This document shows positions 10,763 through 13,181 of a stretch of 64,000 nucleotides of DNA, in pieces. Below the pieces are notes generated by a model. That model made no database searches, was not told where the DNA came from, and saw only the letters and a list, made by a program, of their open reading frames with translations. Both the position numbers and the translations under genes were made by a program. Positions within the stretch are counted from its first letter, which is position 1, and the number at the start of each line of letters is the position of its first letter. This DNA comes from Allacma fusca. Its lineage: Eukaryota; Arthropoda; Collembola; Symphypleona; Sminthuridae. Location of the stretch: NCBI GenBank assembly GCA_947179485.1, contig OX359246.1:20336001-20400000 (forward strand), given 5' to 3'.

Positions 10763-13181
10763 CTAGCAAACAAGGCGGTAAGAAATATAACGCCCAGCAG
10801 TTTCTGAAGGCCGGATGATTTTAACCACCTGAAAACATAAGTTTTTAAACATTAAAAAAGTTACACGTGTTGAAATTCATTACAGATAATTCTCACAATA
10901 TTTCGCGATAAGCAACATTGATACGTAAAGAAAAGAAAGTAATTTCTATAAATAATTGCAGATAGATAGAAATAGAAATAATTATGCCTGGCCCCGTTGA
11001 AGCCCAAAATATCTCGCTACAGGATCTGAGCTTTGCATTCTTGGCAAGAAATTTTCTTTTATGCGGCTGCAGAGTAAAGAGGAAATGCACAGAATATAGA
11101 ATACATTAGAAACTACTATCTTACTACATTACAAATATCTAGCAAACTGACGAGTCAGTTTAGCACCGATCGAAAATGTCACATCACCTAAAAAACTCTT
11201 TAAAATCCACACTATGAATTCACTGTAATTTAAACCCTTGGAAAATTGAGCAAGCATGAGAGGGTGAGTTAGCGAAAGCGCAAGCAGCAGAAAATCGAAA
11301 ATAGATGCACAGAAGCGATTTAATTGTTTATTAATTACTACTACTGTTATCTGTTATTTTAAAATCACACACACCTGACCACGCTTCAAACCAAAATATC
11401 GAGCGACAGGGTCTCCCACTTGGATTCTCATGAGTTGGTTTTCCTTAAGTTTGCTATTAATTAAAAAGGTTAAGGTCATCATTTCAACTTAAATTAGAAC
11501 AACAAGAACTCACATACTTTAGGTTATGTTTAAAAAGCAATCAAAATTATTGCCCGCCGACACGGAGCAACAATTATTCATTCATAAATTCATTTTTTTT
11601 CAGTAACAACTAATTTTTTAAACTCTCACTATCTGGTTAGCAATTCATTTTTCTCCTCTGGCGTCATGACCACGTGTTCAGGAACCAATTCGTGTTCTGT
11701 GATGTTGATGAGGAGCTCGGATTCCAGGAACTGTTCTAAGATATACTTCGGAGCCATGTCAACAAGTGACTAGAACCAAATAAATCAAGTCCAATTTCAA
11801 ATAAAATTTCAAAATTACATTATAACCCATGACAGATACTGAGACTCACAGCTTTAGCAGATGGAGTCATTCCTGCCTGTACAACAATAATAGCTCGATG
11901 AATATTTTCCTCCTGCATTCGCTGACAGTAAGTCTTGATAGTTTTGATTCCTATTTTCGGCTCATCCGGGAAGAACACGAACATTTGATCTGAAATATTT
12001 ACATAAATTACAACTTTGAAAGCTTCCACTATTTCTGGTAAATGAACATAGTAACAAAACACACTATAGATATATAATTAATTACATCAAATTACTACTT
12101 AAAATATATTGTATATTACCTGTAGGATCGTCATTGTGGGCCACCAAAACAATCAAATCAGATCTAGCCGGTCGTCGCTCGCTATAAACAACCAGAATAA
12201 AACAAAATTGTGTTACATAGATACTTTAAGCATAAACAGACATACCTACCCTTGCCCCTCACCGACTATGATTAAAATTGGAACAGAAGCCCAGAGGACT
12301 GAATTAAGGTGAAAAAACTCTTTCCAACAAGTTTCTAATTTTGGAGACATGAAAGTTCAAAAGGTTGAGTCACCTCACTACTCCTAGTCTCCTTTTCGGT
12401 AAACTAGTAATACAAAACTTTACAGTTGTATTGGTTCATCGTCCCTTATCGTAGGCTTGGATTTCCACATTTTGTATTAACAGGCAAGGTTTAGTTTAAT
12501 ACTGATTGCATCTACCATTAAATAATGCGTTGTGACTGATTTCAGTGATATCCGAAAATATTTCGTAAAAGCAATAACCTAAATGTGCCATTTCCAAAAC
12601 TAGAAAGACGCCTGTATCAAAAAGTTCTTTCAACTGAAGGTTGGTAGAATACACTTGTTCCCACAAATATTAAATATCCTCAATCTCTCCCCCCCACCCC
12701 AAGTATTATATCCTTCATGTGTCGTTTCTAAACAAACCTCGGTTTATCTCCAAATTGTTCTTTGAACTGCTCAATGGTCTGGTCCAATTCATCTTGCGTC
12801 ACCAAATAACCTCGATCATGGCAAAGCTGTAAATAATAAACTTATTGTTAGTTCCCATTTTTTTAAACTCCCACTTTCTACTTCACAGATCCCAAACCCA
12901 TGTACAATCTATAACCTAGGTTTCAGATTCCAGAAATATTTACTTCTGATCACTTTCAACTTTGGAAACACACAGCAATGTAATTACATGATATTGACTT
13001 ATAAATAATTATAAAAAAATATAATACAGCTGCACTAAATATTCCAGTAAATTCATAATCGTATTGTCATGAATCATCATATGTTCAAAATTAAATTCAA
13101 AATTGGAAGGAATAAAGCACAGACCTGCATAATCGTCTTCCTCACTCGCCATAGTTTGTAGACTTCTATTTCATCATCCAT
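10763..13181 (-). CDS. POLR2E: DNA-directed RNA polymerases I, II and III subunit RPABC1 (RPB5)
   Basis: The seven exons 13181-13125, 12826-12738, 12181-12120, 11989-11850, 11769-11630, 11453-11375 and 10828-10763 sum to 633 nt, giving 210 aa, the length of animal RPB5. Diagnostic stretches are [101 protein letters not shown] and [20 protein letters not shown]. The subunit is shared by all three nuclear RNA polymerases. Its N-terminal jaw domain contacts downstream DNA, and its C-terminal domain matches archaeal RpoH. It is head-to-head with PIGV. A second copy of exon 6 lies in the last intron and is listed separately. Identification is firm. Splice sites are consensus except for the extra exon's GC donor. 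Confidence 0.97.
10988..11066 (-). CDS. POLR2E: Duplicate (candidate mutually exclusive) exon 6 of POLR2E
   Basis: 79 nt, exactly the length of the canonical exon at 11453-11375, and it starts and ends in the same phases (2 and 0). It follows a strong pyrimidine-CAG acceptor and reads (Y)[26 protein letters not shown], against (Y)[26 protein letters not shown] in the canonical exon. Across [13 protein letters not shown] nearly all nucleotide differences are synonymous, the mark of selection on protein. The donor is CAG/GC rather than GT. Using both exons would break the frame and using either keeps it. It could be a true alternative exon or a dying duplicate. Phase, length and substitution pattern favour the former. 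Confidence 0.7.

Follow-up and report, generated by a model that had tools for sequence, protein, structure and literature searches.

The gene for RPB5 (POLR2E) in the springtail Allacma fusca contains two similar copies of its sixth coding exon, which raises the question of whether one form of this subunit is made or two. The three nuclear RNA polymerases share five subunits, of which RPB5 is one (PMC6690254). A preliminary description of the 64,000-nucleotide stretch of DNA that was analysed in the present study (the window) had pointed to the second copy and proposed mutually exclusive splicing. The features of the locus, taken together with the exons found in insects, suggest that the two 79-nt exons, located in the only RPB5 gene found in the genome, probably arose by an ancient tandem duplication and are used in a mutually exclusive manner.

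Structure of the RPB5 gene

The complete RPB5 coding region, 13181 to 10763 on the minus strand, consists of seven exons and encodes 210 amino acids (Table 1). Exon 5 ends in the TA of a split codon, so both exon 6 and its copy begin in phase 2; both end in phase 0. In the protein numbering used here, exon 6 corresponds to residues 163-189. The alternative exon follows an acceptor, CTCTGCAG|C, and ends at a GC donor, CAG|GCATAA. The existence of the second copy, its length, its phases and its open frame are as originally described.

Table 1. Coding exons of the A. fusca RPB5 gene and the introns flanking the alternative exon
Feature	Position	Strand	Remarks
Coding exon 1, ATG start	13125..13181	-	Open spliced frame; genome match corresponds to residues 1-21
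Coding exon 2	12738..12826	-	Open spliced frame; whole-protein genome match
Coding exon 3	12120..12181	-	Open spliced frame; whole-protein genome match
Coding exon 4	11850..11989	-	Open spliced frame; whole-protein genome match
Coding exon 5	11630..11769	-	Open spliced frame; genome match; donor ATA|GTGAGA
Exon 6 (LMR form), 79 nt, phase 2 to 0	11375..11453	-	Residues 163-189; donor CAG|GTGTGT
308-nt intron separating both exon 6 copies	11067..11374	-	3' end pyrimidine tract 14/17
Alternative exon 6 (LPR form), 79 nt, phase 2 to 0	10988..11066	-	Candidate exon
159-nt intron 3' of alternative exon 6	10829..10987	-	No AATAAA/ATTAAA hexamer
Coding exon 7, ends with stop	10763..10828	-	Open spliced frame; genome match

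Exon 6 and its copy are identical at 47 of 79 nucleotides and specify the same residue in 18 of the 26 whole codons; the differences are distributed over the three codon positions as 10/5/17. The changes had been described as mostly synonymous across a conserved stretch of 13 residues, and 12 of the 13 residues are indeed the same. The two resulting proteins differ at eight positions (K164R, L165I, Q169F, M171P, I173M, V175S, G176S and K186Q), and the first copy carries the LMR motif and the second LPR, as had been reported.

Published criteria for mutually exclusive exons comprise homologous neighbours of equal length and phase that encode the same segment (PMC3228551). The springtail exons are homologous, of equal length (79/79 nt), in the same frame and bounded by compatible splice sites, and the product is broken by both exons or by none. 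With either copy between exons 5 and 7, the product is an open, full-length RPB5 of 210 amino acids. The inclusion of both copies leads to a stop soon inside exon 7, in line with the earlier reading of the frames, and the omission of both leads to a stop at the junction of exons 5 and 7. It seems that one of the two copies at a time is spliced between exon 5, the donor of which would be common to both forms, and exon 7, so that two full-length RPB5 proteins would be made. Exclusivity would be enforced at least by the frame, because 79 is not a multiple of three. In RNAs containing both exons or neither, the stop is reached only at the junction with the last coding exon or inside it, so that their decay is not assured.

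All three matches of the exon 6-7 peptide in the 392.7-Mb genome lie inside the RPB5 gene. With the complete protein as query, nine matches with E values of 1 or below were obtained, eight of which are exons of the same gene. The ninth, located on another contig, has an E value of 0.038 and 29% identity; a direct tblastn comparison of this locus with RPB5 found nothing at E up to 10, and the open frame present there is unlike RPB5. A retrocopy or a second RPB5 gene was considered as the source of the extra exon and rejected, as the genome search yielded no further locus. The LMR form of the protein is up to 92.4% identical to a known RPB5; with the alternative exon in the query, the 210-aa matches listed (best 120 of 1986) are 81-89% identical.

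Divergence and constraint of the second copy

By the counting method, pS between the two copies is 0.85, which is saturated, and pN is 0.28. The ratio pN/pS of 0.33 (codon bootstrap 0.16-0.58) points to constraint; a comparison of this kind had been suggested along with the preliminary description. Two neutral simulations were performed. In the first, all 32 differences were placed on one freely drifting copy in 20,000 runs; 25% of the runs were stop-free, and the retention of 18 residues was reached in none of them (best 14, mean 8.0). In the second, the first copy was constrained and the second drifted, with 4,000 runs at each of five branch lengths. A match was defined as a stop-free frame with at least 18 residues kept and at least 17 third-position changes, and there were 0 matches in 4,000 runs at every one of the five divergences. 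When the second copy was placed under purifying selection (omega 0.3), 0.03-2.1% of the runs matched, which indicates that the third-position count is high under all these simple models. Given the saturated silent sites and the lack of neutral matches, the second copy is old and was long constrained, and a recent loss of its use is compatible with the test. A search for repeats linking the flanks of the two copies yielded none of 25 nt or longer; its lower limit was a similarity of about 65%, and the exon 6 pair itself escaped it.

The residues of the second copy were compared with 333 homologous segments picked by a pattern from 345 proteins, the three insect alternatives described below (P0002, P0006, P0121) being left out. 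G184 and G188 are invariant in all 333 segments and are kept in the second copy. The same is true of D177, where the pattern allowed D or E; the pattern demands D or E, then P, at positions 177-178, and the constancy of P178 is uninformative. Seven of the eight residues distinguishing the second copy are present in the RPB5 of other species, the exception being F169, found in 0 of the 333 segments.

LPR-type exons in insects

Three protein searches were made, of which the best 120 of 1986, 620 and 1384 matches were considered, in a set clustered at 90% identity; such clustering hides most isoforms, and absence from this set means little. Among the matches listed, an LPR-type alternative exon 6 occurs in at least three insects. 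In Lycorma delicatula it is part of 'Rpb5 isoform X2', and in Anabrus simplex of 'RPABC1 isoform X2', a record of 178 aa with an odd N-terminus; both isoform names come from automatic annotation. The Ladona fulva gene model J437_LFUL010364 contains both copies, first LMR, then a linker, then LPR, which is the order found in the springtail. The linker residue S before N is the one expected if the exon began with C or T behind an AG acceptor, which suggests that the Ladona alternative exon has the same start phase as the springtail copy.

The insect alternatives carry (Y)NL(K/R)EN.LPR(I/M)QT.DPI(C/S)RYFGLRRGQ and run on into VVKIIR. They belong to three orders and agree with each other at 23-24 of 27 residues (the first Ladona residue set to Y). 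The LPR exon of these insects has the same protein position and the same length as the springtail copy; however, N164, T175, I179 and R186, common to all three, are missing from the springtail copy. The latter agrees with the insect alternatives at 17-19 of 27 residues and with its own first copy at 19 of 27.

A search for the duplicate in related species had been proposed at the outset. No springtail was named among the best 120 of 1384 matches with the alternative segment as query, where many entries are nameless. The matches listed for this query were general LPR-type RPB5s and Anabrus.

Origin of the alternative exon

The distribution of LMR and LPR was tabulated for 49 named animal proteins picked from the 345, with 50 segments, as Ladona was represented twice and the springtail was not counted. 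LMR was found in 18 of 23 arthropod segments: those of seven chelicerates, a sea spider, two myriapods, five crustaceans and three insects, including the first copy of Ladona. The remaining five segments have LPR and belong to two barnacles and the three insect alternatives, so that LMR is present in 18 of the 20 non-alternative arthropod segments other than that of the springtail. All 27 non-arthropod animal segments have LPR or IPR, which agrees with the statement on LPR in other animals in the preliminary description. The second springtail copy thus carries the ancestral residue, and it either split off before the arthropod LMR arose or changed back.

In the maximum likelihood tree of 36 chosen exon 6 segments (27 columns, one barnacle included), the springtail copy fell outside the LMR group, together with the barnacle and the alternative exons of the three insects. 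The barnacle in question is Pollicipes (P0009). Its RPB5 and that of Amphibalanus (P0013) share LPR and GLRRGQ, by which they differ from the remaining non-alternative arthropod segments tabulated. In barnacles, the second exon alone may have been retained.

Several topology tests were made on the 27 columns. Two arrangements were acceptable in the AU test: the four alternatives as one clade (P = 0.64) and a clade uniting the alternatives with the LMR forms (P = 0.19). The springtail exon 6 might have been doubled independently of insects, with LPR acquired by convergence, and the pair might still be mutually exclusive. The lack of the insect-type N164, T175, I179 and R186 is consistent with such a duplication, and the tree in which the springtail pair are forced to be sisters is disfavoured but unrejected at the 5% level (AU P = 0.076). 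Nevertheless, it is rather unlikely: the best tree joins the springtail copy to the insect alternatives, the order of the copies is that of Ladona and the phase is apparently the same, and the change from ATG to CCA requires three base changes. The springtail pair combined with an insect-alternative clade gave an AU P of 0.036, yet the KH (0.079) and SH (0.19) tests did not reject it. A single old origin of the alternative exon is favoured, not proven.

A more far-reaching scenario can be put forward tentatively. The duplication may date from before the rise of arthropods or close to it, with LMR evolving in the first copy and the ancestral LPR being kept by the second; many lineages would have lost the second copy, and springtails and several insect orders would retain both, with hexapods building Pol I, II and III of two flavours by exon choice.

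Splice signals and the present state of the exon

The acceptor of the alternative exon, previously called strong, exceeds the other six of the gene in the pyrimidine content of its tract (14/17, against 9-12). The GC donor had been named as the weak point, and its pairing with U1 (-4.5 kcal/mol) is the weakest of the seven donors (others -4.6 to -8.1), though by a narrow margin only, as the donor of exon 5 itself has -4.6 kcal/mol. The donor pairing energies were calculated with the letters that we take to be those of U1. An enrichment of GC donors in alternatively spliced genes has been reported for human, nematode and Arabidopsis (PMC2490688), and GC---AG is among the patterns admitted by published rules for detecting mutually exclusive exons (PMC3228551). 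A GT donor further downstream was also considered; the best of the eight in the 159-nt intron, ATT|GTGAGA, has -4.4 kcal/mol, which is no better than the GC donor, and lies past an in-frame TAA. Pairing between introns of the docking/selector type, which is expected in only some genes with mutually exclusive exons, was nothing clearly beyond chance: the intron-intron duplexes were equalled or exceeded by 47, 5 and 25 of 100 shuffles.

Being the weakest in U1 pairing, the GC donor could have crippled the exon recently. This leads to the explanation that an exon long used as an alternative has begun to decay in the lineage of A. fusca, with the change from GT to GC as an early step, and that only the LMR form is made. 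The donor, which is also poor at positions +4 to +6, and F169, absent from the homologous segments surveyed, are in agreement with decay. The second copy has also changed faster: the springtail and Ladona alternative exons differ at 8 of 27 residues (first Ladona residue set to Y), and the first copies at 1 of 27. However, the frame, the acceptor with its pyrimidine tract, the invariant residues and the exact exon bounds are all intact, and decay is considered unlikely.

The GC donor might also be unused, with read-through to GCA TAA producing either an RPB5 without its last 21 residues or an unproductive RNA. The in-frame TAA is located one codon past the exon, and the poor donor is as this explanation would have it. 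An alternative last exon is disfavoured, since the following intron lacks AATAAA and ATTAAA, whereas the preceding intron has one of each. A poison exon needs no conserved 13-residue stretch, and the Lycorma, Anabrus and Ladona forms proceed into VVKIIR, which makes an alternative end or a poison exon quite improbable. An assembly error or an inserted fragment of a second gene copy, for which no supporting point was found, is scarcely credible in view of the reported assembly QV of 58.7 (PMC10427803), the lack of another RPB5 locus among the genome matches, the copying of the exon with its acceptor and without adjoining exons, and the existence of homologous exons in other orders.

A mutually exclusive pair, the logic of which had been recognised from the exon lengths, phases and frame, also finds support in the saturated silent sites, the conserved protein and the LPR-type exon of three insects. 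The alternative exon of the springtail is presumably spliced in and the pair may be common to hexapods; the exon choice would be regulated, and a weak GC donor after a strong acceptor would be in keeping with such regulation.

Possible function and relation to known systems

In yeast Rpb5, both domains are essential, and the C-terminal part (residues 143-215) binds to a helical bundle in the largest subunit of each of Pol I, II and III (PMC6690254). In the alignment with 1dzf, which ends at 208 and 213, the yeast numbering is shifted by +5 relative to the springtail, and exon 6 corresponds to about residues 168-194 of yeast, inside the C-terminal assembly domain. The E197K substitution in this domain decided yeast growth with a yeast-archaeal chimera (PMC3906176); yeast residue 197 is springtail residue 192, just past exon 6. 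The position of the exon inside the subunit-binding domain and the effect of the nearby E197K suggest that the swap could adjust how firmly RPB5 is bound to the largest subunits, or how it is assembled. The swap of residues 163-189 could also tune contacts with assembly factors.

Mutually exclusive exons of the arthropod muscle myosin heavy chain and Dscam are likewise adjoining homologous exons of equal length and phase that encode the same structural segment. The springtail pair, a candidate from genomic sequence, differs from them in its GC donor and in its intron pairing, which does not clearly exceed chance. More than one version of RPB5 per organism is also represented by paralogues, such as the plant Pol IV/V forms and trypanosome RPB5z. 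These versions, described in plants and trypanosomes, are separate genes, and several copies of shared subunits are reported for olive (PMC6690254, PMC8721170). In the springtail, in contrast, there is one gene, and the exon choice would concern only 27 residues of the assembly domain. In the open literature, as covered by titles and the beginnings of abstracts of the papers listed, with subscription papers and preprints outside, no mention of an alternative or mutually exclusive exon in arthropod RPB5 was found, nor any publication on the Lycorma, Anabrus and Ladona forms. If the proposed exon choice is real and conserved, the core polymerase would exist in forms derived from one gene across a large part of arthropods, and the two forms would offer a natural variant pair for probing the role of RPB5 in Pol I, II and III.

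Other features of the window

A family of direct repeats with a 39-nt period (CACATGACCTCAGATTGACCTTCCTGTGACACTA type) occupies positions 13819-14476 and begins approximately 640 bases 5' of the ATG of RPB5. Downstream of RPB5, the region 4488-10396 of the minus strand contains ORFs, some of which are Thr/Ser-rich; the ORF at 4488-4895 (minus strand) has a weak match, below the cut-off, to reprolysin-like metallopeptidases (PF13574, E 0.00079).

The plus strand at 26378-63657 contains at least four tandem copies of a gene with two ORFs, of 138 aa and 160-167 aa (26378/27270, 36809/37700, 50122/50947 and 62268/63154). This gene looks like a member of a multi-pass membrane receptor family; a Pfam scan of a single ORF (27270) gave no match. 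The minus strand at 44177-45553 contains ORFs in which a YADD motif occurs and which presumably represent a reverse transcriptase of a non-LTR retrotransposon. An exon of a PIG-V mannosyltransferase was detected at 16578-17174 on the plus strand (PF04188, E 6e-21).
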